A DNA stretch of 64,000 nt from Nitrosospira sp. NpAV (GTDB taxonomy: Bacteria; Pseudomonadota; Gammaproteobacteria; Burkholderiales; Nitrosomonadaceae), in NCBI RefSeq assembly GCF_000832065.1, contig NZ_JXQM01000013.1:62001-126000 (forward strand), given 5' to 3'. Of the stretch, positions 5,251 through 61,850 are shown in pieces. The translations under genes were made by a program, and so were the position numbers. Below the pieces are notes generated by a model. That model made no database searches, was not told where the DNA came from, and saw nothing but the letters and a program-made list of their open reading frames with translations. Numbering within the stretch: position 1 is the first letter of the stretch; the number at the start of each line of letters is the position of its first letter.

Positions 5251-5402
5251 AATCCTGATTCAAGTAGTTGGACGGGATGAAGGGAGAGATTTTATGGGCG
5301 CGGGGCCAGGCACACGCCACGTAAATGTAATTCCATGTCGAATGAGTACGAATCATAGTCTCTGAACTGACAAACGAGCAGTCAACCGCCGGATTCAGAA
5401 TA
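5251..5402. repeat. MITE-like dispersed repeat, short form, upstream of ku
   Basis: About 152 bp bounded by imperfect inverted ends: the left end reads CCTGATTCAAGTAGTTGGAC and the right end CAACCGCCGGATTCAG, the reverse complement of a left-type end. The left arm continues GTTGGACGGGATGAAG, which also occurs in the copies at 7100 and, more loosely, 55954. It has no coding capacity. It is one of the more diverged members of the family. Assignment rests on visual alignment only. Confidence 0.6.
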
Positions 5403-5697
5403 ATGCAAAGCTACACTGTCCCCCATTCTGGAATGGGACTGGATAGTGAAACGTGCAAAATCTACCCGCCCATCGATGTGGACCCGGACATATTTTTCCC
5501 CACATTCTGTTTATTGTATGTGCGATTGCACACGGACCCTTTATTATGGGCATCAATCCGGCGATCAACTGTCGGCGGGAGATTATTCCGACTACTCAGC
5601 AAGTCATTGTGTCATTTATAAAAAAAATTAGCCGACCGCGAAGTTTTGCACGTCATCTTGAATAACAAACAGATTTCCATGAGAAAGGTAAATTGAT
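5403..5697. other. Intergenic stretch between repeat and small membrane gene
   Basis: No convincing gene is present. Three overlapping short open frames on the plus strand have unrelated, Cys/Arg-rich translations and no ribosome site, so I do not call them. One short perfect palindrome, TGTGC-GATT-GCACA, lies at 5519-5532 and could be an operator, but it may be chance. The end of the stretch carries GAAAGG seven to eight bases before the ATG at 5698. Confidence 0.4.
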
Positions 5698-5934
5698 ATG
5701 GATTATTTTTCCCTCTTACAATGGCCCGCCATGGTGGTTAACATACTGTCGGTCTGGCTGCTGACATCTCAGTCCAAGGGTAAGCGCCATGCCGGATTCT
5801 TGCTTTCCCTCCTTAGCAACGTCTTATGGGTAATCTGGGGATGGCACGCGCAAGCCTTCGCCGTTCTTGGTCTTCAAGTTGCACTGGCCGCCCTTAATTT
5901 CCGCGGCGTGCGTAAAACCGAAAGTAATGCGTAA
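5698..5934 (+). CDS. Small membrane protein resembling half of a PnuC-type transporter
   Basis: A 78-residue protein with about three hydrophobic segments (roughly 8-24, 32-48, 50-68). It ends in an RGVRKTE-like basic tail, so the C-terminus is probably cytoplasmic. The pattern WxxxLNxxGxRK near the end recalls the repeat unit of PnuC/SWEET-like small transporters, which can work as oligomers of half-size units; that relation is a guess from appearance. A good Shine-Dalgarno (GAAAGG) supports the start. No neighbour points to a substrate. Confidence 0.6.
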   Translation: MDYFSLLQWPAMVVNILSVWLLTSQSKGKRHAGFLLSLLSNVLWVIWGWHAQAFAVLGLQVALAALNFRGVRKTESNA

Positions 5935-6261
5935 GCGCGTTCCATCAACTAGGTAGGCGTTAATAAATCTCCGTGAAGCGCTACTGACACACTCGGAAAG
6001 TCATATAGAGGCTGGTCTTTTCTAACGTGGAATGTTGGCTGAATAGAGAGAAGAAAGGCCGGATTTTCCATGGCCGAGTATTCATGAGAACCCAACCTGA
6101 ATAATGGAAAAATCCCTGCTGATCCGGATAAGCAGGATTCTTATGATAGCCGGAATAGGATGTCCGTCGCTGATGGTCGCTGCTAATAACGCTCTGGACT
6201 ATCAGTCGAACTTATTGTTCGTACAGCACGTGATGTCAGCTCAATTTATGGAACATTCGAG
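5935..6261. other. Intergenic region with two adjacent inverted repeats
   Basis: No gene seen in 327 bases. GGATTTTCCAT (6061-6071) can pair with ATGGAAAAATCC (6103-6114) with one bulge. Immediately after, CCTGCT (6115-6120) pairs with AGCAGG (6131-6136). The second hairpin lacks a U-tract, so neither is a clear terminator. They may be remains of a mobile repeat or a structured 3' region of the fkbM transcript on the other strand. Confidence 0.3.
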
Positions 6262-7032
6262 TTAAGCTCTTTCGAATATAAAGCAGGTTTCACCCCAATT
6301 TTTGGTAGTTTTGAACTTCACTTTGAAGCCCGCCTGTTCCAACAGCTTTACCGCCTCCTCCTGCTCTTCACTGGTCCCCAGTTCAATGATCACCGACCTG
6401 ACATCCGGATTCTTGAGAGTATTTTCCGCGCCTTTTATAATAGGAATCTCGATGCCGTCGACATCTATCTTGATGTAGTTGGGACAGGGCAATCCCCATT
6501 TACCGCATAAATCATCCAGCGTTACACCGAGCATGCCCTGGATATGGCTAGCCGGTCGTTTCATGGTCTTCAGATCTTCTTTCCCAAACTGCGAACGGTT
6601 TCCGCCGGCAATAAATCTCGGAATATACAATTTGGAAAACCCGCTAACCCCTGATATGGCGACGCCATATGCGGTAATATTCTTCTCAAGTTTATTTAAA
6701 TATACGTTCTTGTTGAGCAGATAATAATTGATGCACTGGGGCTCAAAGGCATATACCTGGATAGCATCCCCAAACTTCTTGGCGGGGTATAATGAGTATT
6801 GACCGATATTCGCGCCCAAATCAAAAAAAACCGAATTGGGTTCGAAGCTGTCCAGCCAATCCAGCGTATCCGGCTCCTTGATGGAATATGTTTTTGCTCG
6901 TTGAAGTGTCCGCATGTTATCCACCGCGATACGTATGGATTGACCTCTGACGTTTACTTGTGTGTAGCCGCCTTTCACACCATAAAGTGCCGCGAAAAAT
7001 CCTGATAAAATGTTCATGAAGAATGAGCTCAT
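6262..7032 (-). CDS. FkbM-family methyltransferase
   Basis: A 256-residue SAM-dependent methyltransferase of the FkbM family. Motif I reads FFDLGANIGQYSL near residue 70, and the family segment YIKIDVDGIEIPIIKGAE is at about 190-207. The short hydrophobic N-terminus (FFMNILSGFFAALYG) may associate with membrane. In surface-glycan clusters these enzymes commonly methylate sugars or lipid-linked glycans, and the glycosyltransferase genes upstream fit that role. The gene is clearly AT-richer than its housekeeping neighbours, which hints at transfer. Met6 is an alternative start; neither has a strong Shine-Dalgarno. Confidence 0.85.
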   Translation of the reverse strand: MSSFFMNILSGFFAALYGVKGGYTQVNVRGQSIRIAVDNMRTLQRAKTYSIKEPDTLDWLDSFEPNSVFFDLGANIGQYSLYPAKKFGDAIQVYAFEPQCINYYLLNKNVYLNKLEKNITAYGVAISGVSGFSKLYIPRFIAGGNRSQFGKEDLKTMKRPASHIQGMLGVTLDDLCGKWGLPCPNYIKIDVDGIEIPIIKGAENTLKNPDVRSVIIELGTSEEQEEAVKLLEQAGFKVKFKTTKNWGETCFIFERA

Positions 7033-7099
7033 GTTGGCAACCGTAGATTTGCTAGTGGAAAGGCGAATGAATGCCCGGAGAATTGGTTTATTCCTTCTA

Positions 7100-7489
7100 A
7101 CCTAAATCCGGCAGTTGGACGGGATGGAATAAGCGGTTTTTCGGTGCAAGGCAAGCCGCAACGACGCGGAATAGTGCGACCGTGCAAGGGGGAGCAGCGC
7201 CTTTCGCAGGAAAGGGTGACCCCGAAGCAGGGTGCGGGCCTCCCGTGGTAGGAAAGCGTGGTCGCGGCATTCCCTACGCTGCCCGATTCCCGTTTCGCGG
7301 GGCCTCTGTGCCACGCTCCGGAGTGGCCCCATTCCAGGGCGTTGCGAACAACGCAGCCATGTGCTGTAAAAACCGTGCAATCCGCTCCGTAGCAAACTCA
7401 ACATAAAGATGAAGGTAAAGTGAGGCACAAAATCTTTTTGGATCATAACACTAAATTGAAGAATAGGCGGTCGACTGCGGGGTTTAGGT
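7100..7489. repeat. MITE-like dispersed repeat, long form, upstream of fkbM
   Basis: About 390 bp. The left end is CCTAAATCCGGCAGTTGGAC and the right end GTCGACTGCGGGGTTTAGG, an imperfect inverted pair. The interior closely follows the copy at 53463-53841, with shared blocks such as GGAGCAG, TTCGCGGGGCC, CGCTCCGGAG, GCGTTGC, GCCATG and TAAAAACCGTGCAATC. It is GC-rich in the middle and AT-rich at the right end. Open frames inside it are not conserved as protein between copies, so it looks non-coding and non-autonomous. Confidence 0.75.
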
Positions 7490-7651
7490 GTAACCCAAAT
7501 CTTTTCAGTCGATAGCAGCTAAAGCGATTCTTTTATACACGGCTGATTATGCTGATGATTCATTTGCACGAGGAGTCATTTCTCCAAAGAACCGGATACC
7601 GCTTTGTGATTGCCCTGTCAGCAGGGCCGGCAAGCGCCGAATCCCACCCTG
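7490..7651. other. Intergenic region between repeat and rgpF-like gene
   Basis: About 160 bases without a supported gene. They lie downstream of the minus-strand gene that stops at 7652 and before the repeat. I see no strong terminator hairpin with a T-tract. Transcription of the glycan cluster may continue through the repeat toward fkbM. Confidence 0.3.
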
Positions 7652-8590
7652 TTAATGCGATATAGGCGAGACAATACAGTCCGATAGAATATCGGCAGTA
7701 TAACTAGAGTTGCTATCCGCAAGCGCAGCCGCAACTTCTTCAATGCTTATGCCTCTCCTCGTCAAGATACTTTTTTTGAGAAACGGAAATTGAAACTCGG
7801 TAATAAGGGGCTTCCATAAATGAAAAGTCGTATCTACCTGGTTCTTCGGCCTTTCAAGATACTGCACTCGATCCAGGATGTCTTCCAGATTATAGAGAGC
7901 CGAGAGTTTGAATCGGTGACTGAGCAATCGGGAAAAGCCGACTTCATATCTCCTTATTATTGCCATCTTAAATTCTAAGACCTCAACCCGCTCGAAAAAA
8001 CCGGCGAATTCCTCAGAGGCAACCACAGATTTTTTACAATAAAGAAAATACGATTGCAGATGCGGATGGAAGCGAAGGCAATCCGTCATTCCAACGATAT
8101 CGGCATCTTTATCTTCCAATTTCGCGATTATATCTCTAATGCTGAAAAGCGGTCCCAGAACGCTGTCATTGGCTAAAAGAAGGGCACTGTGCGCACGATA
8201 TTGGGGGTATTCCCGGAGCCCTGTTTTCCATCCATAAAAATCGTGCCCCTTATTCTCCCGGATTATTATCCTTACACAAAATTTCGACAGCTTCTTCAGA
8301 TCCGCATCCGAAATAGTATCGCTTGAGCTAATGAATACGACATTGAATCCCGCCTGAACAAGCTCATTCAGGTAGTGAAACACATTTCTCCTGACCGTGC
8401 TTTCCTTATCGTAGCTGCAAAAGAAACATACAGGTTTAGCATAATCCGGCTTCAGGCTTCCCTTCCCGGAGTACTCAAGCCGGGGCTGCCTGGGCGTTTC
8501 ATTTTTTATGAGAAAATCAAACGATAAAACGGACAGATATTTTAAATCTCTGATCATCGTTTTAAGACGCCAATAGGTGGATATCCTCAT
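7652..8590 (-). CDS. Rhamnan-synthesis protein F (RgpF)-like glycan biosynthesis protein
   Basis: A 312-residue soluble protein that resembles the RgpF family of polysaccharide biosynthesis proteins. After a variable N-terminus it reads KPVCFFCSYDKES, then NVVFISSSD, RENKGHDFYGWKTGLREY and LLLANDSVLGPL. The N-(K)G-x-D-x-x-x-W and NDS segments are typical of the family. Members act in assembly of rhamnose-containing O-antigen or cell-wall glycans; the exact transfer is not known here. It lies 23 bases downstream of the GT2 gene and is AT-rich like fkbM. The start is taken at the first Met, preceded by AGAAG; Met12 is possible. Confidence 0.75.
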   Translation of the reverse strand: MRISTYWRLKTMIRDLKYLSVLSFDFLIKNETPRQPRLEYSGKGSLKPDYAKPVCFFCSYDKESTVRRNVFHYLNELVQAGFNVVFISSSDTISDADLKKLSKFCVRIIIRENKGHDFYGWKTGLREYPQYRAHSALLLANDSVLGPLFSIRDIIAKLEDKDADIVGMTDCLRFHPHLQSYFLYCKKSVVASEEFAGFFERVEVLEFKMAIIRRYEVGFSRLLSHRFKLSALYNLEDILDRVQYLERPKNQVDTTFHLWKPLITEFQFPFLKKSILTRRGISIEEVAAALADSNSSYTADILSDCIVSPISH

Positions 8591-8613
8591 AAGCTTCTAC
8601 AAGACGAGACGCA

Positions 8614-9579
8614 TTAACGCAGCAAATCCTGGCGAAAACTCCTGAATCCTTTGGCATAGCGATGATAGCGCAGTGCGACCAGCTCGCGCAGCGCACCAGG
8701 TAGCCGGCGCCAGCGCGCGTCAGGCAGCGCGGCGACCGCACGCAAAAAATTGAGTGTTTCTTCAAGACGGCGAATATTATGTCCACTATCGGGAAAGCGG
8801 TCGCCAAATTCCCGCAAGCGCTTCAGCGCTTCTTCAAAGCGGAGAGCCTGCAGGCCATGAATGGCGGCACAGGTCATGCCGCGTCTCCTGCCACGGCGCG
8901 GTATGCCAATCTGATTTGCGCCGTGTTGACGATAGGCGATCAGCGGCGTTGGTAGTGCGGACAGCTGCGATGTGGCACCCATCAGCATTGCGATCCAGGC
9001 ATCATGCACCCATATGTCAGGGATAGGCAGCAGGAGATCCCGATAACGGGAGCGAAAAGCCATCGTCGCGCCGGTTACCATGTAACGTTTGAGCAGTACC
9101 GAGAATGCGTCACCGGCATCGACCTGAGCCTGCTCTGGCCGGCGGAACCGCACTGCTTCCCATAGATGCAGTCCCAATGGATGCAAATCTTGGTCGACCA
9201 CATCGGCATCGGTAAATACCACGCTCACCCCAGAATCAGTCGTGAAGCGCTCTTCAATAAGAGCCATTTTATTCGGATACCAGACGTCGTCCTGATCACA
9301 AAGAAAAATGATGTCGCCGCTGCAGGCACGCATGGCAACTTCGAAATTACGCGTCGAGCCAAGACGCTCCCTGTTCGTCAGCAACCTTACGGGAAAGGGC
9401 GCACGCCTGGTAAAATCCAGTACGATAGCTTTTGTCGAATCAACCGAGGCATCATCGGATATCACCAGCTCCTCTGGCAACCGGGTCTGGCGCACGATAC
9501 TGTCGAGTTGCTCTGCGATGTAACGTTCACCGTTGTAAGTAGCTAAGGCAATAGACAGCGATAGCTGTGTATTCATCAT
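8614..9579 (-). CDS. Family 2 glycosyltransferase
   Basis: A 321-residue GT-A enzyme. The N-terminal beta-strand and nucleotide site read SIALATYNGERYIAEQLDSI and VISDDASVDST. The metal-binding region is LCDQDDVWYPNK (about 93-104), and an acceptor-side motif HDAWIAML follows near residue 190. This pattern is close to rhamnosyl- or galactosyl-transferases of O-antigen clusters. It is predicted to be cytoplasmic at the inner membrane face, adding one sugar from a nucleotide sugar. GAAGAG lies just before the start, where two Met codons follow each other. It forms a run with the RgpF-like gene downstream. Confidence 0.9.
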   Translation of the reverse strand: MMNTQLSLSIALATYNGERYIAEQLDSIVRQTRLPEELVISDDASVDSTKAIVLDFTRRAPFPVRLLTNRERLGSTRNFEVAMRACSGDIIFLCDQDDVWYPNKMALIEERFTTDSGVSVVFTDADVVDQDLHPLGLHLWEAVRFRRPEQAQVDAGDAFSVLLKRYMVTGATMAFRSRYRDLLLPIPDIWVHDAWIAMLMGATSQLSALPTPLIAYRQHGANQIGIPRRGRRRGMTCAAIHGLQALRFEEALKRLREFGDRFPDSGHNIRRLEETLNFLRAVAALPDARWRRLPGALRELVALRYHRYAKGFRSFRQDLLR

Positions 9580-9684
9580 CTCTTCGGCAGTTTATTAGCA
9601 GATTTCCTCTCTTGAATCTTGCTCCAAGAGCCATTACACCCCTGCTCATTGCGGAGCAACGGGCCTCCGGCCGCATCAGCAAAA

Positions 9685-11004
9685 TCATCCAAAAGCGAGA
9701 TTCACAGCGCGTTCGTCCGGATAAGGCTGGCCTTGGCTGGTCCGAGCCCGTCCTTGCTCCTCCAGCAACGCTACGTAGCGGGAAAGTACGTCCGCATCCC
9801 CCACATTGATCATTTCCTTCACGAAACGCTGGTGGTGCGCTTCAATATAAAAATTATCACAGCCGTGAGTCAGGAATCCTTCAATCTGCCGATAAACGTC
9901 ATCCCGGCAGCGCAGTTCCGTCTCGGGCAGATATTCCGCCAGGGCGGAGCGGCCCGCATGCAGATAATCGCCCGCCAGTACCGGCTTCTTCGCCTTGACC
10001 GCTTCAAATACCACCGAGGTGGCCAGGTCAATGATCACGTCCGCCCAGTTCATGAGATGGATGGAATGAATGTCTCCAGCCACGCTCACGTTCGGCAGGC
10101 GCCGCAGCGAGGCATCCCTGGTCAGGGATTGCTGCCAGCCACCACGGGTATGCGGCTTGATGATCAGCTCCACCCCCGGAAAGCCGGCAACAACGCGCAC
10201 CACTTCACCCACTTCTTCCCAGAAGGTGGAAAAGTTGCTCTTCCTCAGAAAGAGGACGACTTTGAGCCGGCTGCCGGAGCGCGTCAGCGGCGAAGGCGGC
10301 ATCAGCGTGGCCAGCTTGGCGAGCCATTCGTCACAGTAGCGCGGCGACCCCAGCACGGCAAGCTTCTGGTTGTCCATGAAGGGCCGAAAACGCACGGAGC
10401 AGAGTTCATTCGGAACCACCACTTTATCGAATATCCCTGCATTGGCAAAGGTGGTGTCGGGCTCCAGGCGCAACTCACGCCGCCGGATCAACTGGCTTGC
10501 ATGCGGGCTGTCTCCATGCGGCAGCGATACGGTGCCAAGCCCCATGGCGCGGGCCGTCGATAGCATGACCCCTACCCATTCCACGCAGATGGAGGAGTTT
10601 CTTTCGATCCAGTCAAATACCACCACGCCCTCATGCGCGTCCCCGAAGCTGCGGGCCAGCAGCCGTTGGGCGGTGCTGTGCCACACCGGTGCCCGCCGTC
10701 TGGCATCGTATGACTTCGCTATGGCCGCCATGATCGGGCCTATGAAAGGGCGACGCAAACTTCGGATCAGTATCAGCGTTTGCAAAAACCAGCGGGCAAA
10801 TTCAATTGGCGGCAACAGGTCACTGATATAGGCCATACGCACGCCGTTGAGCTTGCGCAGAAATTCAATGCGGTAGTCATTACGGAACCGCGAGTTGCCT
10901 ATTAGCACGATATCGCAGGTGTGACCCGAGTTGACCCACTTGTAGATCACCGGGGTAACATGATCAATGTCATTATAATGACGAAGAAAAAAAAGGGCTT
11001 TCAT
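9685..11004 (-). CDS. Capsule/CDP-glycerol-transferase-like protein of the glycan cluster
   Basis: About 439 residues from the Met that opens MKALFFLRHYNDIDHVTPVI; a longer frame reaches 11139 but its extra N-terminus is unlike the family. The layout is two Rossmann-like halves. The first has HVTPVIYKW and VLIGNSR, the second VVLFLRKSNFSTFWEEVGEVV, ELIIKPHTRGGWQ and a late segment DVIIDLATSVVFEAVKAKKPVL. Those features recall GT-B enzymes of the capsule and CDP-glycerol glycerophosphotransferase type (KPHxR, then an E/D-rich donor site). I am confident of a GT-B-type fold but not of the substrate. Confidence 0.62.
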   Translation of the reverse strand: MKALFFLRHYNDIDHVTPVIYKWVNSGHTCDIVLIGNSRFRNDYRIEFLRKLNGVRMAYISDLLPPIEFARWFLQTLILIRSLRRPFIGPIMAAIAKSYDARRRAPVWHSTAQRLLARSFGDAHEGVVVFDWIERNSSICVEWVGVMLSTARAMGLGTVSLPHGDSPHASQLIRRRELRLEPDTTFANAGIFDKVVVPNELCSVRFRPFMDNQKLAVLGSPRYCDEWLAKLATLMPPSPLTRSGSRLKVVLFLRKSNFSTFWEEVGEVVRVVAGFPGVELIIKPHTRGGWQQSLTRDASLRRLPNVSVAGDIHSIHLMNWADVIIDLATSVVFEAVKAKKPVLAGDYLHAGRSALAEYLPETELRCRDDVYRQIEGFLTHGCDNFYIEAHHQRFVKEMINVGDADVLSRYVALLEEQGRARTSQGQPYPDERAVNLAFG

Positions 11005-11166
11005 CCTATATCGGGTGGGTTGGACATGAGGCTGCGACGCGTGGTTCTTGGGATGCGGACCATGTTGCCGTGTAGACTCATGTCGGATTTTGGGAGTAAA
11101 CGCTTTCGCGAAAAATATCCATGCCTGTTGGCAGACCATGCGGCACGCAATGAAATTTGCTCTCGG

Positions 11167-12294: not shown

Positions 12295-12329
12295 TCAACT
12301 CCTCTGGATCGCAAATTCCGCCCACCCAT

Positions 12330-13220: not shown

Positions 13221-13325
13221 GACATCTATCCGGCAAAAAAACGGTATTTTACCTGAATCTTGCAACTCCCAAGAATATTCGCGATATCGCGCTGCGCATC
13301 GGGTAATGCCGGGATTCTCAGCGAA

Positions 13326-15935: not shown

Positions 15936-15968
15936 GAGATTTCCCCGGTGAATTATGGATGACAGCTA

Positions 15969-15995
15969 TATGTGGGATCTGACCACAATTTCAAG
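15969..15995 (-). promoter_or_regulatory. Sigma-32 (RpoH)-type promoter of clpB
   Basis: Read on the minus strand, CTTGAAA (15995-15989) is an exact match to the usual heat-shock -35 element. After a 12-base spacer, CCCACATA (15976-15969) resembles the -10 consensus CCCCATnT. The ClpB ATG follows 33 bases downstream of the -10 element. Assignment uses the E. coli and betaproteobacterial RpoH consensus; no transcript start is known here. Confidence 0.75.
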
Positions 15996-16030
15996 ATAGT
16001 ACAGTGGAGCAATCCCTGCTTTTTCCCGGT

Positions 16031-21980: not shown

Positions 21981-22096
21981 AAGATTCAAAATGTTGCGTA
22001 GAGTGTTCCACGACATTGTGCCTGCCTGCACATCACAATCGCACGCCCCCCTCCAACTGCCGAATTTAGAGCTGGTTTATGCCGACAACGGATTTA

Positions 22097-49559: not shown

Positions 49560-49574
49560 TGGATAGGTCCCCTG

Positions 49575-50246: not shown

Positions 50247-50517
50247 AGGACTTCCAATTTTATGCAACAGGCCGGACAGAGTATCGAAACGGGCACCAGC
50301 GGGCTGCGTTTTACCAAACGAAATAACTTTGATGGAAGCTTCGGGCGATTTCCGTGCGATTCCGAACATAGCTGCATGTTTCCTATTGCGGGATCGGCGC
50401 TACGTCGCCCGATTGATTGCCCAGTATGGAAAAATTACGGAAATTGTCATTCCCTCGTACTATTATGTAAAAACGATACCGATTTCTTTCTCAACTTTTA
50501 TAGGGAGCAGGTAAAAA

Positions 50518-52080: not shown

Positions 52081-52081
52081 A

Positions 52082-53455
52082 TCAACCCTGCGGCTGTTTG
52101 AAAACGGAGGGGTCGAGCTGATATCTTTGAAGAAGTTTGTAGAATTCAGTGCGATTGCGTTTGGCGAGGCGCGCAGCCTGAGTCACATTGCCGCCCGTGA
52201 TTTTCAGCACGCGAACCAGATAATCTCTCTCGAAACTCTTGCGCGCGTCCTCGAAAGATACGAGTTGCTCCTCCTCCTTGTGCATGGCATCGTATACCAA
52301 TACCGGCGAAATCAAGGGGGCGGTACTCAAGGCCACGCACTGCTCCACAACATTCATAAGCTGCCTCACATTACCAGGCCATGAGGCACTAACCAGCATT
52401 TCCATTGCCTCGGGAGAAAACCCATTAATACTTTTATCGTATTTCGCTGAAAATATGCCAAGAAAATGATTCACCAGCAAAGGAATATCCTCACGCCGCT
52501 GGGACAAGACAGGGATGGTTAACGCTACGACATCCAATCTGTAGTAAAGATCTTCTCGAAAACTGCCGTTAGCGATTTCGGCCTTGAGATCACGGTGAGT
52601 TGCGGAAATGATACGGACATCCACAGGGATGGTCTGCATGGATCCAACCGGGCGCACTTGCCTTTCCTGGAGAACACGCAATAATTTAACCTGAAGCAAC
52701 AGTGGCATGTCCCCGATTTCATCCAGGAACAGCGTTCCCCTTTCCGCTAATTGCAACAAGCCTTTGTGATCCCTTACCGCCCCTGTGAATGCCCCCTTGA
52801 CATGTCCGAACAATTCGGATTCCAATAGTTGTTCCGGAATTGCCGCGCAATTTATCGCCACAAATGGGTAATGGCGACGTTTGGAGGCTTCATGTATGGC
52901 GTGAGCGAACAATTCCTTGCCGACACCGCTCTCGCCATAAATTAGCACACTTGCATCCCCTTCCGCCACCAGTCCCGCCTTGGTGAGGAGATCCTCCATC
53001 ACCGCGCTTTGCGTAATGATACCTTTGGACCAGGATGCCTTTGACATATCGTTTTGTCCCGCCGCGCCGGGGACATACCTGAGAGCCTGGCTGATATTGG
53101 CCAGCAGCGTCTTACTGTCAAAAGGTTTGGCGAGATAACCGAATACACCTCGCTGAACAGCCGCGACCGCATCGGGAATAGTGCCATGTGCTGTCAGAAT
53201 TATCACTGGCAATGTGGGTAGCGTACGGTGAATTTGTTCGAATAGTGCCATTCCATCCATCCCGCTCATCTGCATATCGCTGATGACGAGCTGCGGGCGC
53301 GACACATCCAGATAATTGAGGGCCGCCTCCGCGCTTGGCACGGCTTCCGTTTTGTAGCCAGCGGCTGTAAGCCGGATCGTGAGGAGTTCCAGGAGATCGG
53401 TATCGTCATCGACGATGAGGATTCTTGGCTTGGAATCGGAAGTATTTTTATTCAA
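52082..53455 (-). CDS. glrR: Sigma-54-dependent response regulator (GlrR/QseF type)
   Basis: A 457-residue NtrC-family activator. Receiver domain (about 10-125, phosphoacceptor Asp60 in VISDMQMSGMDG), AAA+ domain with GESGVGKELFAHAIHE and the GAFTGA loop, and a C-terminal Fis-type helix-turn-helix (VTQAARLAKRNRTEFYKLL). It should activate sigma-54 promoters when phosphorylated by the kinase upstream. The start is a TTG; an in-frame stop lies four codons upstream, so the start is fixed to a few codons. Its Shine-Dalgarno AGGA lies inside the terminal repeat of the 53463 element. Confidence 0.93.
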   Translation of the reverse strand: MNKNTSDSKPRILIVDDDTDLLELLTIRLTAAGYKTEAVPSAEAALNYLDVSRPQLVISDMQMSGMDGMALFEQIHRTLPTLPVIILTAHGTIPDAVAAVQRGVFGYLAKPFDSKTLLANISQALRYVPGAAGQNDMSKASWSKGIITQSAVMEDLLTKAGLVAEGDASVLIYGESGVGKELFAHAIHEASKRRHYPFVAINCAAIPEQLLESELFGHVKGAFTGAVRDHKGLLQLAERGTLFLDEIGDMPLLLQVKLLRVLQERQVRPVGSMQTIPVDVRIISATHRDLKAEIANGSFREDLYYRLDVVALTIPVLSQRREDIPLLVNHFLGIFSAKYDKSINGFSPEAMEMLVSASWPGNVRQLMNVVEQCVALSTAPLISPVLVYDAMHKEEEQLVSFEDARKSFERDYLVRVLKITGGNVTQAARLAKRNRTEFYKLLQRYQLDPSVFKQPQG

Positions 53456-53462
53456 TTTATTA

Positions 53463-53841
53463 TCCTAAATCCGGCAGTTGGACGGAGCAGAATGTGCGGT
53501 TTCTGAAATGCAGGGCAACGGCAGCGGCGCGGAATGGCGCGGCCCGCGGGGCGGAGCAGTGCCCTCCGCAGGAAGGGGTGTCCCCGTGGCGGGATGTGGG
53601 TGCCTCGGAACGCGGTCCGGCGTCCCCCCTCGCAGCCCGATCCCCGCTTCGCGGGGCCCCCTCGTGCGACGCTCCGGAGCACCTCCGTTCCAAGGCGTTG
53701 CAACGCTGCCATGCGCCGTAAAAACCGTGCAATCTACCCCGTAGCGGCCTCACCCAAAAGGTGCGGCTCAAATAGTATAAGCCGTTGTTATTAATCATAA
53801 CGCTAACCTAATAAATAAGCGATCAACGACCGGATTTAGGA
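53463..53841. repeat. MITE-like dispersed repeat, long form, between qseG-like gene and glrR
   Basis: About 379 bp and the best preserved copy. The ends form a near-perfect inverted pair: TCCTAAATCCGGCAGTTG at the left and CAACGACCGGATTTAGGA at the right. The interior aligns with the copy at 7100-7489 over most of its length. It fills the gap exactly: the stop codon of the upstream lipoprotein gene (TGA, 53842-53844) abuts its right end, and the glrR start follows eight bases beyond its left end. It is therefore transcribed as part of the operon unless it terminates or starts transcription. Confidence 0.85.
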
Positions 53842-54396
53842 TCATAGGCCTCTGAGAATAAGATTTTTTTCCATGCTTTTAATCGCTTCAATCTGATTTT
53901 GCAGCGTTTCCACCCGTTTTTGCTCTTCTTTCAATTTTATCGATAACTCGTTTAATTTTAGCGCTGACTCATCCACGCTATTACTTAGCCGCTGCTGTTC
54001 CGCAAGCAGCGTCGCCAGTAAATTTCTGAAACTTTGCAAGCCCGTCACGGGTTTCACATCGCGTGGCCATTCGTTGAGCAGATAAAGCGCTGAATTCACG
54101 TCGCGGAAGGGAGTGTTGGGCAGAATGAGAAGTAATATCAATCTCGCCCGGTTTGCCTCACTTTTATTCTGTACAAAATTTTGCTTTACCTTATCGTACA
54201 CGCGAGCGAGTTCCGCCGGCGGCTGCTTGCGCAAGGAATCGTAATATTGCATCAGATCTTCCATTTGACCGATTACGATCAAGTCGGACAGCAATAGCCC
54301 CCCAGGTTGCTGATTTTCAGGGATGGCGGTACAGGCGGTTAGCAACGTCAGTATCACCACCGGTAGAATCCGGAATTTCTGGTATGCGTTACTCAT
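53842..54396 (-). CDS. qseG: QseG/YfhG-like lipoprotein of the sensor operon
   Basis: A 184-residue lipoprotein (lipobox LLTAC, Cys about 22). The mature chain is helical with a C-terminal coiled coil (LNELSIKLKEEQKRVETLQNQIEAIKSMEKN). Position and size match QseG/YfhG, the outer-membrane lipoprotein encoded between the kinase and the regulator of the GlrK-GlrR system and needed for kinase control in enterobacteria. Sequence identity to QseG cannot be judged by eye. Its ATG overlaps the kinase stop as ATGA. Confidence 0.75.
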   Translation of the reverse strand: MSNAYQKFRILPVVILTLLTACTAIPENQQPGGLLLSDLIVIGQMEDLMQYYDSLRKQPPAELARVYDKVKQNFVQNKSEANRARLILLLILPNTPFRDVNSALYLLNEWPRDVKPVTGLQSFRNLLATLLAEQQRLSNSVDESALKLNELSIKLKEEQKRVETLQNQIEAIKSMEKNLILRGL

Positions 54397-55907
54397 AAGG
54401 TTCCTTCCGGGTCACGGATCGGCAGGGTAAGACGAAAATGGGCGCCATTGACATTAACAACCGGTTGCATCAGCTCTATATTCCCTCCGTGCGCGAGCGC
54501 GTATTCGCGCGCGATGGATAACCCCAGTCCCGTTCCCTTTATATGACTGTCGAGTACCTGCCGCCCCTGATAGAAAGGCTCGAATACCTTTTCGCGATCC
54601 GCCTCGTCAACACCGGCGCCGGCATCCAGGATATCGAATTGCACCGTCTCGTCTACCTTGCTTGTCCAGATTTTTATGCACCCGCCAGGAGGAGAGAACT
54701 TAATTGCGTTCGATAACAGATTATCCACAATAACTTTAATTTTTTGTTTATCACAGTCAATTATCAACTCCGGGCAGGAGACCTCGATTTTCAAGCCCTT
54801 ACTCATGGTGATAAGGTTCTGATCTTGTAATACGGTATCCAGAATTTTCGCCAGATTCGCCTGACGTTTCACCAGTGCGGCTTTCTCCGTCTGGAGCGCG
54901 CTGTAGCTCAGCAAATCCTCGATACGCCGCTGTAATTGTACGCTGTTGCTGTACAGGATATTCGCGATACGCTGCTGTTCTTCGGTCAATTCTCCCACCA
55001 CGCCTTCCGCAAGCAGGTCGGCACCTTCGCGCATGGCGGTGAGCGGTGTCTTGAGTTCGTGAGAAACGTGCTGTAGAAACCGGGTTTTCTGCTCTTCCAG
55101 TTTCAGCAACCGACGGCGCAACCAGTCCAGGCGTTCGCCGAGATACCTTAAATCCTGAGGACCGTCCACTCTTATCGCTTTAAACAGCGCACCTTCCCCC
55201 ATGGTACGAATCGCTTCGTCAATCTGGCGTATTGGATGCGCAATCCGCAGTGAAAAGATGAATGCGAGGAGAATCGCGAACGGAATCAAGGCAAGCAGCT
55301 GCCATCCGACGGTAAAGCGGGCATCCCCCGCCATATCCTGCATTTCGCCTACCTCACGTTCAATCAACGCATAACCGACCGCCGAAAAGGTTCGCGCCGA
55401 ATCCCGCAGGGGCACGAATTTGCCAACCAGATCGCGCAGCTCTTCCGGTGACTTTTCTCTGGCCGATACGTTACCGAAAATAGATATCTCCAATAGTTGC
55501 ATTTGCTCCAGCAATTGTTTTTGTTCAGTATGCAGGGAAAGCTCAAAAAGATTGGCTGAGGCGCTTTCGAACTTCTCATGTGCCCTGAAGTAATTTTCGA
55601 GCAGGGACGTATCGCCAAGGATGTGTGTTTGCCGCACAGCACGTTCCATGGCTGCAATTTCATCCGCCAGGACACGGCTGCCGTGCGCAATTTGCGCCGC
55701 CTGGTATACGGCCCTGCGGCTTTGATCCGCCAACCGGTCAATGGAGAATGCGCTATTGACGAGAGCGATGATAAGCGGCAAGCCCACCAGCGCAAATCCG
55801 AACAGAATCAATTTCAGGAAGGATTTTGGCTTCTTGCGCCGCATCCGTGAAATGGAAGTAGCGCCAATACCACCCTCCTGCTTTACGGTATCTCCATCAA
55901 CAACCAT
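54393..55907 (-). CDS. glrK: Sensor histidine kinase (GlrK/QseE type)
   Basis: A 504-residue kinase with two transmembrane segments (about 31-53 and 197-220) around a periplasmic helical domain of about 145 residues. HAMP follows, then HisKA with the phosphoacceptor His283 in HVSHELKTPLTAM and HATPase with DNLLSNAIKFSP, DAGAGV and GTGLGLSIA. The gene order kinase-lipoprotein-sigma-54 regulator is that of GlrK-QseG-GlrR, which senses envelope-related signals. AAAGGA ahead of the ATG is a good ribosome site. A short copy of the repeat lies 46 bases upstream. Confidence 0.88.
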   Translation of the reverse strand: MVVDGDTVKQEGGIGATSISRMRRKKPKSFLKLILFGFALVGLPLIIALVNSAFSIDRLADQSRRAVYQAAQIAHGSRVLADEIAAMERAVRQTHILGDTSLLENYFRAHEKFESASANLFELSLHTEQKQLLEQMQLLEISIFGNVSAREKSPEELRDLVGKFVPLRDSARTFSAVGYALIEREVGEMQDMAGDARFTVGWQLLALIPFAILLAFIFSLRIAHPIRQIDEAIRTMGEGALFKAIRVDGPQDLRYLGERLDWLRRRLLKLEEQKTRFLQHVSHELKTPLTAMREGADLLAEGVVGELTEEQQRIANILYSNSVQLQRRIEDLLSYSALQTEKAALVKRQANLAKILDTVLQDQNLITMSKGLKIEVSCPELIIDCDKQKIKVIVDNLLSNAIKFSPPGGCIKIWTSKVDETVQFDILDAGAGVDEADREKVFEPFYQGRQVLDSHIKGTGLGLSIAREYALAHGGNIELMQPVVNVNGAHFRLTLPIRDPEGTL

Positions 55908-55953
55908 TTTTATCCTTTGATTGGCGACTTGCCAAGGCCGATACCTGAATCCA

Positions 55954-56110
55954 TTCTAAATCCGACGAGCGGGCGGGATGAAGTGTGCGATATTTTGGCT
56001 GCGGGGCAAGGCGCAACGATGTGAAATGGCTTGTTATATTCCATGACGTTGCAAATGCAGCCATGTGCCACAAAACTGTGCACATCATTCCCCTAATACC
56101 GGATTTAGGA
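55954..56110. repeat. MITE-like dispersed repeat, short form, upstream of glrK
   Basis: About 157 bp. Left end TTCTAAATCCGACGAGC, right end ATACCGGATTTAGGA. The arms are each other's imperfect reverse complement over most of their length, so the whole element could fold into one long hairpin. Compared with the copies at 7100 and 53463 it lacks the GC-rich centre of about 200 bp but keeps both arms, for example GGCAAGGCGCAACGA and TGCAGCCATGTGC. This makes it the minimal, probably ancestral or internally deleted, form. Confidence 0.8.
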
Positions 56111-56218
56111 CCATATGCGATTATCTCTAGATTATGCCGATAATTCAGAAAATCTGAATAGTCTTATTGGCACAGAACTTCGTGTCGCGGCGTTCATCCA
56201 GATTTGGAGCGGGTAAGT

Positions 56219-56593
56219 CTATGGCGTTGAAGCAATGTAGGGCTTGCAATAATGCTTGGAAGGAAATTCCTTGTTCCTTCGCGAATTGACAATAACATCA
56301 CCGCCGTTTTTTACGCACTCCCGCATCGAATTGTTCAGACTGGCATAATGCTCGTTTGGCTCTGTATTTTTTGAAACCGGTGGTACTTTCTCCCGGATTT
56401 TGACGCACGCCGCCACTTCATCTCCGGCGGGAGAAATATCTTTTGTAGGTGGTAATGCACATAATTTACATGGATTACCCGGACACAGGCATCCGCTACA
56501 TTGCGCATGCGCTGCGGTGGTGGATATTCCCAGCAGCGATGCGAGGACAAGCGGGCTGATCAGCCGCAACATATCGATTGACTTCATCTTCAT
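56219..56593 (-). CDS. Small Cys-rich exported protein, hypothetical
   Basis: A 124-residue protein. A signal peptide (about 10-30) ends AHA. The mature N-terminus is strikingly rich in cysteine: QCSGCLCPGNPCKLCALPP, five Cys in 14 residues, with four further Cys spread over the rest (ACVK, MRECVK, HYCKPY). It could bind metal or be disulfide-rich. No family is recognised. GGAGG lies close to the ATG at 56593; the Met at 56587 has the better spacing. Confidence 0.65.
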   Translation of the reverse strand: MKMKSIDMLRLISPLVLASLLGISTTAAHAQCSGCLCPGNPCKLCALPPTKDISPAGDEVAACVKIREKVPPVSKNTEPNEHYASLNNSMRECVKNGGDVIVNSRRNKEFPSKHYCKPYIASTP

Positions 56594-56682
56594 ATCCTCC
56601 CGCCTTTCCTGTCAGGTACTGTTACGACCCCACCGCCCTGCCTGCCGCCGGGCTTGTCGAGGTACGGCTTCATTCAACCACA

Positions 56683-57036
56683 TTACAACAATTTGGTCAC
56701 GTTCTCCGGTGGCCGGCATAACACGGCCTCATCGCCACGCACGACAATCGGCCGCTGAATCAGATCCGGATTCTCCACCATAATCTTTATTAATTCGTCA
56801 TCCGGCAACTGCCGCTCAGCCAGCTTCAGGCTACGCGCGAGCGGTTCGTCGCTACGCAGTACGTCGCGTACCGGCACACCCAGTTTATCGATCAGTTCGC
56901 GCAGTGCCGCGGCGGTTAGAGGGATCTCATAGTAATTGACGGCATCGAACTCTTGCCCGCTATCCTTGAGGAGTGTAAGCGTCGCCCGGCATTTACTGCA
57001 GGTGGGCTTGTGATAAATGGTAATCCTGCTACTCAT
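56683..57036 (-). CDS. Arsenate-reductase-family protein (ArsC/YfgD type)
   Basis: A 117-residue thioredoxin-fold protein with the family start ITIYHKPTCSKCRATLTLLKD, including the catalytic-type Cys in PTCSKC, then YEIPLTAAALRELI and the Arg loop IQRPIVVRGDEAVLCRPPENV. ArsC of E. coli uses a single Cys in H-x-P-x-C; here the first motif is HKPTCSKC. It could reduce arsenate with glutaredoxin, but many YfgD-like members have no shown arsenic role, and no ars genes are near. The start at 57036 has AGGAGG upstream. Confidence 0.9.
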   Translation of the reverse strand: MSSRITIYHKPTCSKCRATLTLLKDSGQEFDAVNYYEIPLTAAALRELIDKLGVPVRDVLRSDEPLARSLKLAERQLPDDELIKIMVENPDLIQRPIVVRGDEAVLCRPPENVTKLL

Positions 57037-57349
57037 GCAATTTCCTCCTGTCTCCATCCTGCAGCCCCGTCGCCCCCGATCCGCATCGCGAGCTCCGAAG
57101 GAAGGGCTGCCTGTAAGAACCCGCATCTCACTGAGTCAACGTTAAAACAGCCGGCTGATGAGTATGGCCGACCCTATATAACGCTACTTTAGCAAAACTT
57201 ACAAGTTCGTGACTAAAATACTCCACAAGAATCAAAAACCGGGCGATATGTTCTTTATATGGATATGCCACTATGGGGACGGGCAAAAAAAACGACGCCG
57301 TGGAATCTCGAACAGGGCGCCTTCTTGACCAGGGCAACTCTGCCCGCCT

Positions 57350-59086
57350 TCACCCATGCTCTGCTTTGATCCCTGTGGTATGGATTCCTTGTTTGCTGAA
57401 TTTTACTAGGACATGGCGAGTCATGCTGAGCGCAAGCTCATGCTCGCCCAGAAGTACCGTACCCCCGCTTTCTTTTCGCAGGAGGGCCGCCTCTTCTTCA
57501 TTATGTGTACGCACAATGATCTCGACCGGTGGATTGAGCATCCGTGCGGTTTCTATCATCCGGCGAGCACGGAGCGCATCGGGAACTGCGATCACCAGCA
57601 TTTTGGCCCGCGCGATATGCGCTTGTATAAGCACAGCCGGTTCAGCGGCATCGCCCGCCACGGCATGGATTCCATGCCTGCGTAACCCTTCGACCATCTC
57701 GCGATTCTGATCCGCCACAACGAGCGCCACCCCCTGTTCGATCAGCGCTTCGCCAATATGCCGGCCGACCCGACCATAACCCACCAGCACCACATGGTTG
57801 GTCACGTAGCTTGAGGCAACCGTCATCGGCAGCTCCGCCAGAGGATCGTCGGAACGCTCCAGAACGCGGGCAAGCTTGGAACGGGAGCGTATCCATTCCT
57901 GTGCCGGTTCGATTACCTGGAATACCAGGGGATTGAGCGTGATCGAGATAAAAGCCCCCGCGAGTATAAGACTCTGGGCCTCGATCGGCAGAAGTCCGAG
58001 GGAAACACCGAGCGCTGCAAGGATAAACGAGAATTCGCCAATCTGGGCAAGACTGGCCGACACGGTTAATGCCGTATTGAGCGGGTAGCGAAAAGCAAGT
58101 ACCAGCAGAAAGGCAGCCAGCGATTTGCCGATGATAATAATCGCAAGCGTGGCGACAACAAGCAGCGGCTGATCGATGAGGACGTTCGGGTCGAACAGCA
58201 TTCCGACGGAGACAAAAAACAGTACCGAAAAGGCATCCCGGAGCGGCAGGGAGTCCTGGGCGGCCCGATGACTCAAATCGGATTCTCTCATAACCATTCC
58301 GGCGAAAAAAGCGCCGAGCGCAAAGGAAACACCGAAGAGCATCGCCGAACCGTAGGCGATGCCGATCGCCACCGCAATCACGCTCAAAATGAATAGCTCG
58401 GTCGAGTTGGTGCTCGCGACATGCCAAAGCAGCCAGGGAAAAACCCGTTTTCCCACAATAAGCATGAGCGCGATGAAGATTGCCACCTTGCCGAAAGTGA
58501 GGAGGAGCGTTACCAGCAGGTCCGAGCTGGGGCCCGTCACCGGGCCGTCGGCAGAGGTACCCAGCCAACCAGCCAGCGGCGGCAAAAGAACAAGCACCAT
58601 AACCATTGCCAAATCCTCAACCACCAGCCAGCCCACAGCAATCGATCCATTGACGGATTTGAGCACGCCACGCTGTTCCAGCGCCCGTAGGAGTACGACC
58701 GTACTCGCCGTGGAAAGCGCCACACCAAACACAATCGCCGCACCCAAGTCCCAGCCCCAAGCGACCGCAACCGTCGCACCAAGAGCGGTTGCCACCACAA
58801 TCTGCACGATCGCACCAGGCAGTGCTATCCGCCGAACTGCCAGCAGGTCGTCCAGGGAGAAGTGCAGCCCCACGCCGAACATCAGCAGAATGACACCGAT
58901 TTCCGCCAGTTGGCCCGACAGCTCCATATCGGCCACAAAGCCTGGCGTATTGGAACCGAGGATTACCCCCGCAACCAGATAGCCCACCAGTACCGGCAAT
59001 TTCAGGCGATTGGCAATAAGCCCCATAAGTAAAGCAAGACCGAAACTGACGGCAATGGTGGTGATCAGAGTAACGCTATGGGGCAT
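57350..59086 (-). CDS. KefB/YbaL-type CPA2 antiporter with TrkA-N domain
   Basis: A 578-residue protein. The membrane domain (1-about 390, about 12 helices) starts LALLMGLIANRLKLPVLVGYLVAGVILGSN, with ALSTASTVVLLRALEQRGV and FFVSVGMLFDP in the conserved core. The C-terminal NAD-binding TrkA-N domain reads HVVLVGYGRVGRHIGEALIEQGVALVVAD (about 420-450) and DALRARRMIETARMLNP. It would exchange K+ or Na+ for H+ under nucleotide control. A second, shorter CPA2 protein lies at 18799. No gene for an ancillary KefF/KefG subunit is near. Confidence 0.92.
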   Translation of the reverse strand: MPHSVTLITTIAVSFGLALLMGLIANRLKLPVLVGYLVAGVILGSNTPGFVADMELSGQLAEIGVILLMFGVGLHFSLDDLLAVRRIALPGAIVQIVVATALGATVAVAWGWDLGAAIVFGVALSTASTVVLLRALEQRGVLKSVNGSIAVGWLVVEDLAMVMVLVLLPPLAGWLGTSADGPVTGPSSDLLVTLLLTFGKVAIFIALMLIVGKRVFPWLLWHVASTNSTELFILSVIAVAIGIAYGSAMLFGVSFALGAFFAGMVMRESDLSHRAAQDSLPLRDAFSVLFFVSVGMLFDPNVLIDQPLLVVATLAIIIIGKSLAAFLLVLAFRYPLNTALTVSASLAQIGEFSFILAALGVSLGLLPIEAQSLILAGAFISITLNPLVFQVIEPAQEWIRSRSKLARVLERSDDPLAELPMTVASSYVTNHVVLVGYGRVGRHIGEALIEQGVALVVADQNREMVEGLRRHGIHAVAGDAAEPAVLIQAHIARAKMLVIAVPDALRARRMIETARMLNPPVEIIVRTHNEEEAALLRKESGGTVLLGEHELALSMTRHVLVKFSKQGIHTTGIKAEHG

Positions 59087-59337
59087 TTATCGTGCCGTTT
59101 AGACAGGGTTAATCACCGCACCGATGATTTGGGCATGGATCGCGGCGCGGAACTCCAGGATGGCATGAGAACGCAAATTTGGTTCGGGTTCCGCGTCCGC
59201 CAAGATGAAAAATAGAATATTGAATGAATATAATTAGTGACGAAAGAAACCTTTGTAGATCATAGTGCCAAATTTAAAATATGAACATCGACCACCAAAT
59301 TTGACTGGCATAGGGGGCGGATACTTCTCCCCGGCAC

Positions 59338-60240
59338 TCAGCCTCTATGCCGAGATGCGCGGAAACGCCAGCCAAGCAATCCCAAACCGGCCAGCATCAT
59401 GGCCCAGGTTTCCGCTTCGGGCACGGACGAAACTTGCCAGCCGATGTCTTTCATAGCGGCATTATCAAGCTCTGTAAAATATTTGCGTTGCCCGGAGGCG
59501 ATAGAGGGATCCATCGCAGCCTCCTGGCCAAGATAGCTAAGTCCGTTTGCCCAGTGACTATCACCCGCCAGGGGCGGATTGTAACCCAGCAGGGCGTTAA
59601 CGGCGGGACCCGTAAATGAGCCGTTGGAGATCAGTCTGTCAAAGGAATCGGCCCCGCCAAAACCGAGCACATGCGCCAGCTCATGTACGGCTACTGAATA
59701 AAGATCGACGCCGGAAAAAGATTCGTTTGTAGTGGTATCAGAATCAAAATACCAATTGGAGGTACTGTTAAAGGAGATCGCTCCACCCCATGGCCCAAAA
59801 TCGGTCTCGCTGGGTGTGAGGGCTCCGGATTGACCTCTGCTGGATGCATTATTGACGAAATCAGTGGAACCTTTGCTGGAGAATCCCCCCGGACCGCCCA
59901 CCGCTAATGTGTCACCCAAATTATGGGCACCGGCAAACACCACGATCTGATTCGCGGCGATACTGTAATTGGAAATGCTAACCTCATTATCGTTATCCGG
60001 CTGAAAGAACCTGACATCAAAACTATTCGATCCCGATGACGTAATCGCGGTCAGATCATCCTGAAAACGGCTCTCGAATGTTGAAGCGGCCGCATTCAAT
60101 AAATTCTGACGCGAACTGTTAGCGCCGGTAAAAAAACCTGAACTGTCGTAACGATAATCAAAATGAATATCGATATTAGCTGAAACAGACTGATTCGTAG
60201 CGAGCAATATGCCGAGGAATACTGGGTATGCTAATTTCAT
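59338..60240 (-). CDS. PEP-CTERM protein with HExxH metalloprotease-like domain
   Basis: A 300-residue exported protein. Signal peptide 1-21. A zinc-protease-like motif VAVHELAHVLGFGG (His186, His190) lies in the middle. The usual third ligand of metzincins (position of HExxHxxGxxH/D) is Gly196 here, though Asp198 is close by. The C-terminus (about 273-300) is a PEP-CTERM tag: VPEAETWAMMLAGLGLLGW followed by Arg-rich RFRASRHRG. It is thus a probable exosortase substrate. Its ATG overlaps the alanine-dehydrogenase stop as ATGA, an unusual coupling. Confidence 0.85.
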   Translation of the reverse strand: MKLAYPVFLGILLATNQSVSANIDIHFDYRYDSSGFFTGANSSRQNLLNAAASTFESRFQDDLTAITSSGSNSFDVRFFQPDNDNEVSISNYSIAANQIVVFAGAHNLGDTLAVGGPGGFSSKGSTDFVNNASSRGQSGALTPSETDFGPWGGAISFNSTSNWYFDSDTTTNESFSGVDLYSVAVHELAHVLGFGGADSFDRLISNGSFTGPAVNALLGYNPPLAGDSHWANGLSYLGQEAAMDPSIASGQRKYFTELDNAAMKDIGWQVSSVPEAETWAMMLAGLGLLGWRFRASRHRG

Positions 60241-61385
60241 GTTGCTTGGCTCCTGGTAGTTGAACCGCTCAAGGTATGCTCCAATGCTTGCAATGGATCA
60301 AGATAGCTCAGGCCAAATTCCTTTGCGACCGCAGGATAGGTGACCGACCCCCGGTACGTATTAAGACCGTATTGTAACGCCAGATTTTTTCGTATGGCAT
60401 CCAATCCTTCATCCGCCAGACGCAATGCATAAAAAGCCGTTTGAGCATTCAGGGCGAAGGTGCTGGTGCGCGGGACCGCGCTGGGCATGTTGGCGACACA
60501 ATAATGCACCACGCCGTCGAGTTCGTAGGTTGGATTGCTATGAGTGGTAGGCCGGGTGGTTTCGACGCACCCTCCTTGATCAACCGCCACATCCACGATT
60601 ACGGAACCTTTTCGCATATTCGGCAACATTCCGGCTGTCACCAGCCAAGGCGCCCGTCCACCGGGAATCAGAACGGCACCGATCACCAGATCGGCATTGT
60701 AGACCATCTCTTCAATATTATACTCATCACTGATGCGCGTTTGCAGTTGCCCTTGATAAATGTCATCCAGGTACTTCAGGCGATCATGATTGATATCGAG
60801 CACGGTGACCTGGGCGCCGGACCCGATAGCGGCGCGAGCGGCATTGGTACCGACGATACCCGCTCCCAGGATTGCAACGTTAGCCGGCGCCACACCCGGT
60901 ACGCCGCCCATCAATATGCCCCGGCCACCATATGTCTTTTGCAGATATGTCGCTCCAATTTGAGCGGCCATACGTCCCGCGACTTCACTCATGGGCGTTA
61001 ACAGCGGCAGTTGACCTCCTTCCGTCTGAACCGTTTCGTAGGCGATGCCTGTCACACCATGTTCCAGCAGCGCGATGGTCAAAGGCTTATCCGAGGCCAG
61101 GTGAAGATAGGTAAACAAAATCATGTCTCGATGCAGATAGGGATATTCCGCCGCGGTGGGCTCCTTGACCTTTATCACCATTTCCGCTCCCCAGGCGTCT
61201 TCGGCGCGGGAAACGATCATGGCCCCGGCGGACTGGTATTCCGCATCTGAAATGAAACTCCCCTCCCCCGCTCCGCTCTGTACCACCACCCGGTGTCCAT
61301 GCCGCGTCAAGGTTTTGACTGTACTCGGTGTCAGTCCAACCCGGTTTTCGTGATCCTTGGTTTCCTTGGGCAATCCGATCAGCAT
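60237..61385 (-). CDS. ald: Alanine dehydrogenase
   Basis: A 382-residue NAD-dependent enzyme that interconverts L-alanine with pyruvate and ammonia. It starts MLIGLPKETKDHENRVGLTP, has the catalytic region KVKEPTAAEYPYL, LTYLHLA-like FTYLHLASDKPL, GGRGILMGGVPGV and the Rossmann motif ILGAGIVGTNAARAAIGSG. The family uses His and Lys near the start and VDQGG-like DVAVDQGG. In an ammonia oxidiser it could serve ammonia assimilation. The pnt genes upstream use related dinucleotide-binding folds; the distance is about 465 bases. Confidence 0.95.
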   Translation of the reverse strand: MLIGLPKETKDHENRVGLTPSTVKTLTRHGHRVVVQSGAGEGSFISDAEYQSAGAMIVSRAEDAWGAEMVIKVKEPTAAEYPYLHRDMILFTYLHLASDKPLTIALLEHGVTGIAYETVQTEGGQLPLLTPMSEVAGRMAAQIGATYLQKTYGGRGILMGGVPGVAPANVAILGAGIVGTNAARAAIGSGAQVTVLDINHDRLKYLDDIYQGQLQTRISDEYNIEEMVYNADLVIGAVLIPGGRAPWLVTAGMLPNMRKGSVIVDVAVDQGGCVETTRPTTHSNPTYELDGVVHYCVANMPSAVPRTSTFALNAQTAFYALRLADEGLDAIRKNLALQYGLNTYRGSVTYPAVAKEFGLSYLDPLQALEHTLSGSTTRSQAT

Positions 61386-61850
61386 GCTTTTGTTCCTGAC
61401 TGAATAAAATTGAACTTATTCTTCCGCAAAGATGAATTCGATACAAAGAATTTTACAGATAATCTTGTCTCGCCAGATAATTCTATACGGCAATAAAAAC
61501 ACTTTACCGGCGGGCATCAAGGAACTCTCGATAGATCCATTCTTTCTTATTAAGTATACAACCCGATCCCAGGGTCGCTGTAAAAAATAACCCTGAATCC
61601 GGTAGTGCGGCAAGGTGAAGTGAGCAGTTTCTGGAGGCAGGACAGGCTCAACGACGCGGAATGGTCATTCCATTCCGGCATGAGAACAAACTTAAGCGGG
61701 AGTGGCCGCTCGCCGCGACGCGCGGAATGCATTCTCACGAATCGAGCGAGCAGTCAGGTGAGGATAGGTTGATCAGTCCTTCACAAAGGCGATGTGGCCA
61801 AGGCTGCGACTCCCAATGAACACGTATTGAGGTGAAGCGTTTATATATGG
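61386..61850. other. pntB-ald intergenic region
   Basis: About 465 bases containing the half repeat at 61589-61680 and otherwise no supported gene. The stretch 61386-61588 is AT-rich and may hold the ald promoter. Short minus-strand frames inside the repeat have the arbitrary look of the frames in other copies. Confidence 0.35.
61589..61680. repeat. Half copy of the MITE-like repeat
   Basis: The left arm is recognisable: CCCTGAATCCGGTAGTGCGG, then AAGGTGAAGTGAGCAGTTTCT and CTCAACGACGCGGAATGG, matching the left arms of the other copies. It stops being alignable after the centre (ATGGTCATTCC), and no right end of the CCGGATTTAGG type is found in the next 170 bases. So it is truncated or strongly diverged. 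It lies in the pntB-ald gap. Confidence 0.55.

Follow-up and report, generated by a model that had tools for sequence, protein, structure and literature searches.

Correia elements are flanked by a TA duplication. Bacterial miniature inverted-repeat transposable elements (MITEs) are described as short sequences with terminal inverted repeats and flanking direct repeats, able to form a hairpin and located between genes, and TA is given there as their usual duplication (PMC4133298). MITEPye1 of Paracoccus yeei is reported to be a non-autonomous, mostly intergenic element with a long stem-loop, IS1182-like ends and 1-3 chromosomal copies (PMC11578231). The insertion sequence (IS) ISEcp1, of the IS1380 family, has the left inverted repeat CCTAGATTCTACGT, the right inverted repeat ACGTGGAATTTAGG and direct repeats of 4-5 bp according to its description (PMC7864471). 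The subject of this report is a family of dispersed hairpin repeats in a stretch of 64,000 nucleotides ("the window") of Nitrosospira sp. NpAV, contig NZ_JXQM01000013.1, positions 62,001 to 126,000. The genome containing the window (G000) comprises 3.45 Mb in 315 contigs. The titles and abstract openings of the literature searched name no Nitrosospira MITE.

The repeats are, with high probability, non-autonomous transposons of the MITE kind, served in trans by an IS1380-like DDE transposase. In the proposed mechanism, the transposase would recognise a terminal inverted repeat of about 17 bp, CCTRAATCCGGYAGTTG; the 5-bp target, ATNAT or TTNAA, is duplicated on insertion. The long form of the element has at its hairpin tip a GC-rich module specific to Nitrosospira.

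The initial annotation, made from the letters of the window, had placed five copies there. An nhmmer profile built on 28 copies with both ends, of which 27 come from other Nitrosospira genomes, one (L149) from another family and none from the window genome, recovers 5/5 of them in the 64-kb window, within about 3 bp of the places proposed. The reversed window gives no profile match at E up to 10. The elements and their parts are the following:

5254..5399, + strand: MITE copy, short form of 146 bp with decayed ends; ATAAT at 5249-5253 and 5400-5404; arms matched by the profile at E 1.3e-5 and 6.6e-6
7101..7488, + strand: MITE copy, long form of 388 bp with GC-rich module; nhmmer E 3.6e-83; flanks TCTAA / TGTAA, 4/5 bases matching
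7176..7325, + strand: GC-rich module within the 7101 copy (locus L003 1576-1725)
53464..53840, + strand: MITE copy, long form of 377 bp with a same-strand gene on either side; nhmmer E 1.1e-85; flanks ATTAT / ATCAT, 4/5 bases matching
53545..53682, + strand: GC-rich module within the 53464 copy (locus L001 1583-1720; the module alignment took this stretch shifted by one base)
55955..56109, + strand: MITE copy, short form of 155 bp, upstream of gene 54393..55907(-); nhmmer E 2.2e-8 and 2.4e-6; flanks TCCAT / ACCAT, 4/5 bases matching
61592..61680, + strand: half copy, restricted to the left end and its arm; nhmmer match 61592-61664, E 1.5e-8
22005..22069, - strand: possible decayed remnant of one arm; weak nhmmer match, E 0.0031

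Both long copies and the 55955 copy also match the profile on the opposite strand, and the arms are therefore reverse complements of each other, imperfect ones as had been proposed. Within the window the 11-bp end is weakly over-represented (27 matches at up to 2 mismatches vs 19.0 after shuffling; 3/100 shuffles reach as high). Over the whole window genome the family end occurs 191 times vs 17 for a reversed-pattern control (up to 1 mismatch), and in the single-contig genome G001 it occurs exactly 125 times vs 1 for the control. The long window copy as a query finds 34 matches in the window genome at E up to 1e-3. The family is thus numerous and dispersed, as its five occurrences in the window had suggested. 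Besides the short form of about 155 bp and the long form of about 385 bp with its GC-rich centre, both of which had been distinguished at the outset, there are a form of about 236 bp and miniatures of about 100-136 bp; two-ended copies span 100-388 bp (n=49). Each of the six frames is open for at least 90 codons in 14-19 of the 23 long copies, which looks like a reflection of base composition.

The arms of the MITE are seen in 16/23 Nitrosospira genomes (G000-G003, G007, G010-G017 and G020-G022, with G010 and G014 represented by one arm only), a lower bound obtained with arm-only profiles run on fetched loci. No arm occurs in the fetched loci, best long-copy match included, of G004, G005, G006, G008, G009 and G018. 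The long-copy query, which includes the GC-rich module, matches 22/23 genomes of the genus with 1 to 53 matches each and finds nothing in G019; a MITE distribution of 22/23 genomes was rejected, as in six of them the module alone was seen. In a collection of named genomes, all 25 stretches with the arm pattern come from three Nitrosospira assemblies. Searched at the DNA level, the long copy has no match in the plasmid and phage collections. The exact 17-bp end was found in 5/399 sampled genomes of the order, namely the window genome, G014 and three genomes outside Nitrosomonadaceae. In 7/19 loci of the metagenome-assembled genome (MAG) MAG 40_S54 (L274, L278, L281, L285, L286, L290 and L292), no more than about 100 bp separate the arm pattern from the end of the contig, and the repeat seems to break the assembly.

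Target-site duplications and a full-length element that encodes a transposase and has the same ends had both been named in the initial annotation as things to look for. Both were found, the latter in other genera only. The duplication is 5 bp long: identical 5-bp flanks occur in 21/49 two-ended copies vs 3.9 when the flanks are given shuffled partners. The sample consists of fetched copies with each end at most one base off CCTAAATCCGG, CCTGAATCCGG or CCTAGATCCGG; it omits more decayed copies, among them 4 of the 5 window copies, and loci fetched for the IS, and includes at least one pair resembling one locus shared by two genomes (L047 of G012 and L049 of G011). At other lengths the flanks agree in 25/49 copies at 2 bp, which is a by-product of ATNAT, and in none at 1, 3, 4 or 6-10 bp. 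The 21 exact duplications are ATAAT (5), ATTAT (5), TTTAA (4), TTGAA (2), ATGAT (2), ATCAT (1), TTAAA (1) and TTCAA (1), all of which fit ATNAT or TTNAA.

An empty site corresponds to the copy at 53464-53840. In the window 386 bp separate gene 52082..53455(-) from the gene ending at 53842, and the same gap measures -7 to 9 bp in 17/22 other genomes. It was found closed by eye in three more (L215, L218 and L225), where the second flank is unmatched, so that the site is empty in 20/22 relatives. G003 has a 214-bp gap at this site, the start of which resembles the Nitrosospira MITE, and G019 a 134-bp gap without a MITE. These duplications and empty sites contradict a spread of the repeat by recombination, or its origin as an assembly artefact, rather than by transposition; the division of the window genome assembly into 315 contigs could be taken to favour such an origin, but many copies stand in single-contig genomes, and its probability is negligible. 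The genes around 53464-53840 presumably correspond to a glrK-qseG-glrR operon, and the copy at 55955-56109 is situated just upstream of them. Copy 5254-5399 lies 23 bp ahead of the start of a Ku-like gene; we take the genes at 1768-5230 to resemble LigD and Ku. In the 49-copy sample, a long frame ends or starts within 30 bp of the element in 19 copies and runs into it in 20. An earlier statement that copies abut genes was overstated, since frames running into the element had been cut at the element, and these numbers are the recount. MITE copies lie beside genes, possibly also within them, and effects on neighbouring genes would be a by-product of the landing site.

A transposase with the corresponding ends was found outside the genus. 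Locus L150, outside Nitrosomonadaceae, is a degraded IS with family-type ends, the transposase pieces of which match IS1380 weakly and in order. A piece of this transposase matches 19/399 genomes of the order. In one of these, G191, from another family, the transposase query gives 11 matches, and ten intact IS copies could be measured, nine of 1639 bp and one (L170) of 1710 bp; L170 has two left ends, of which the outer one was used. The G191-type transposase is a frame of 526 codons. The ends of the ten copies are CCTATTTCCGGCAGTT and CCTAAATCCGGCAGTT, and the CCTAAATCCGGCAGTT end is identical to the MITE end across 16 bases. Identical 5-bp flanks surround 7/10 copies (ATAAA in three, ATTAT, TTCAT, ATCAC and TTGAG in one each), all fitting WTNAN. 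Two of the IS transposases exceed the cut-off of Pfam PF13701 (84.3 and 69.1 bits vs 34.7). The partner transposase is about 22-25% identical to annotated IS1380 transposases on plasmids, and no solved structure matches it by sequence.

Relatives of both partners occur together on a plasmid. The Polaromonas plasmid CP087967 encodes a transposase relative, 87.1% identical, in an IS that was delimited with a consensus-end search and has TTAAA on either side. A homologue of the Nitrosospira MITE, 234 bp long (arms at E 1.4e-9 and 4.8e-4), stands 357 bp from this IS; at one of its ends 16 bases are identical to the right end of the local IS, and its other end is one base off. The same element, 79.5% identical, is carried by a Caballeronia plasmid between two converging genes, and L149, from another family, contains a 237-bp copy with ATGAT on both sides. 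The MITE family therefore extends beyond Nitrosospira.

A very improbable alternative is that a transposase of some other family moved the MITE and that the resemblance between MITE and IS ends is due to chance. Duplications of 5 bp are known from several transposase families, which is compatible with it. Also compatible is the result on the window genome, where the initial annotation had seen no transposase in the window: the whole genome contains no IS1380-like one, since PF13701 is absent in the Pfam search and the L150 transposase query has no match, a statement limited to this kind, as other transposase families were not searched. The alternative is opposed by the properties the IS1380-like IS share with the MITE, namely 16 terminal bases, the length of the duplication and a WTNAN target, and by the Polaromonas plasmid, where an IS and a MITE with corresponding ends are linked.

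Several observations weigh against the pairing of the Nitrosospira MITEs with the IS1380-like transposase. No IS with MITE ends was found in Nitrosospira, and for this reason the pairing rests on other genera. The L150 transposase query matches G014 weakly and hits fragments in G005. The PF13701 gene of G014 was considered as a partner and rejected, its ends being different (CCCAGATTTTCC). The transposase is called IS1380-like because it passes PF13701 and misses the NCBIfam IS1380 (NF033539) cut-off, both proteins scoring lower (153.3 and 147.8 vs 180 bits) over nearly the whole profile. Among the G191 copies, 3/10 are without identical 5-bp flanks, the flanks of L170 are identical only with its outer left end, and the eleventh copy was left out of the measurement, no right end having been found. 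The IS targets are looser than those of the MITE, with ATNAT or TTNAA in 1/7. Identical 5-bp flanks are missing in 28/49 MITE copies, and the flanks differ in the Polaromonas (TTCAT/TTAAT) and Caballeronia (GTAAC/GCAAC) elements. Around the weaker PF13701 matches in G001, G003 and G010, a pattern search found no matching end pair. An IS1380-like transposase nevertheless remains the likely motor of the Nitrosospira MITEs, and it would have been lost from the genus or would merely have passed through it.

The GC-rich centre of the long form is a separate module of about 150 bp, common to a second, unrelated repeat family. Compared with the 236-bp form, the long form has about 150 bp extra at the hairpin tip, joined in one of two ways, after GGAAT or after GGAATGG. 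Matches to the module, some of them partial, were obtained in 21/23 Nitrosospira genomes and in 0/102 other genomes of Nitrosomonadaceae; the more diverged module of the window itself as a query matches 19/23 Nitrosospira genomes. It is present in six genomes without visible MITE arms in the fetched loci. In G010 and G014 it lies within a different palindromic repeat with AGGGAAGCGCTGAATAAATC ends, presumably of an IS5-like family, where it occupies two internal positions, at times both together. The flanks of this repeat are CTAG or TTAA in the copies read by eye, and the MITE arms are unmatched in 17 of the 18 module loci fetched from G010 and G014 (L253-L270).

The module also occurs in arrays. 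G022 has head-to-tail arrays at L193 (G022:C22) and L272 (G022:C13). At L272 no end-like string of either repeat family is found within 2 mismatches; at the edge of the L193 array there is an end-like string with 2 mismatches, which may be a MITE remnant. At L271 (G017:C18), part of the module forms an array with a 99-bp period beside a string like the end of the AGGGAAGCGCTGAATAAATC family. In L046 (G005), L050 (G008) and L051 (G004), GAAAAAGTAA, which may be the stop at the end of a lysine-rich gene, is followed immediately by the left part of the module, and in L051 this part repeats about every 130 bp; these sites are possibly the source of the module. Recombination between repeats sharing GACGACGCG(G)AATGG could account for some of the module exchange. 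A tentative proposal, not the favoured expectation, is that the module is a mobile structured passenger without a transposase, specific to Nitrosospira and settled at or near the tips of hairpin transposons from two or more unrelated lineages; it would multiply with its host transposons and also exist alone or in tandem arrays. Its estimated likelihood was raised slightly because the module was seen in six genomes without a MITE arm. If the proposal is true, MITEs would either be parasitised by the module or transport it round the genome as a functional unit.

The hairpin itself could be the reason for which the repeats are kept. A structured RNA or regulatory repeat that is maintained by the host and merely looks like a MITE is, all considered, improbable, though less so than a transposase of another family. 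The folding z-scores relative to shuffles are -4.5 and -4.7 for the two strands of a long copy and -3.3 for the 155-bp copy. In 23 long copies both sides change in 13/102 pairs vs 4.8 in shuffles, and pairs are kept in 97.0% of cells vs 36-42% when the structure is slid; the shuffles, however, already keep 96.0%, and neither control is decisive, as the structure was itself taken from these related copies, so that selection on the hairpin is no more than possible. The non-Watson-Crick column types in the outer arms are G-U in 24 cases vs A-C in 9, which favours a structured RNA, but an independent arm register gives 26 vs 15, and a strand preference of the hairpin is suggestive and not robust. 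Further points against a structured RNA are that the module alone covaries in 2/33 predicted pairs, that the orientation to the flanking frames is mixed (22 vs 13 same-strand pairs), and that mobility is demonstrated by the duplications and the empty site. Rfam has no match in the window, and with seven loci at E up to 1 the only match is Ysr276 (L006 2281-2472), outside the element and under the gathering score. Promoter-like sites around two copies number 5 vs 3.0 expected, none within a copy, and terminator-like sites 1 vs 3.7 expected, inside the 53464 copy; these counts are no evidence of a regulatory role.

With the IS1380-like pairing, a numerous MITE family without an enzyme of its own has acquired a probable partner, and the pairing can be tested in the laboratory with the CCTAAATCCGGCAGTTG ends. 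Small transposons persist in a group of nitrifiers, the ammonia-oxidising Nitrosospira, where the enzyme was not found. A common centre in two unrelated lineages of hairpin repeats bears on the origin of MITE interiors. The MITE kind itself is known; what is new is the shared GC-rich centre, the part least expected by a specialist.

Among known systems, the IS1380 family, as represented by ISEcp1, resembles the partner IS in its PF13701 transposase and similar ends, whereas the Nitrosospira repeats themselves carry no transposase. The partner IS shows the CCT-type ends and, with the reservation on L170, 5 bp in seven of ten copies of the 4-5-bp duplication reported for ISEcp1 (PMC7864471). The Nitrosospira MITE shares general MITE features with the Correia elements (CREE) and TIMEs, but differs from both in its ends, in a 5-bp duplication where TA is given as usual (PMC4133298), and in a central module common to an unrelated repeat family. 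With MITEPye1 it has in common the lack of autonomy, a mostly intergenic position and a long stem-loop; it is distinguished from that element by IS1380-like ends and tens of copies. The second Nitrosospira repeat is likewise palindromic and contains the same GC-rich module, but its ends are unrelated to those of the MITE.

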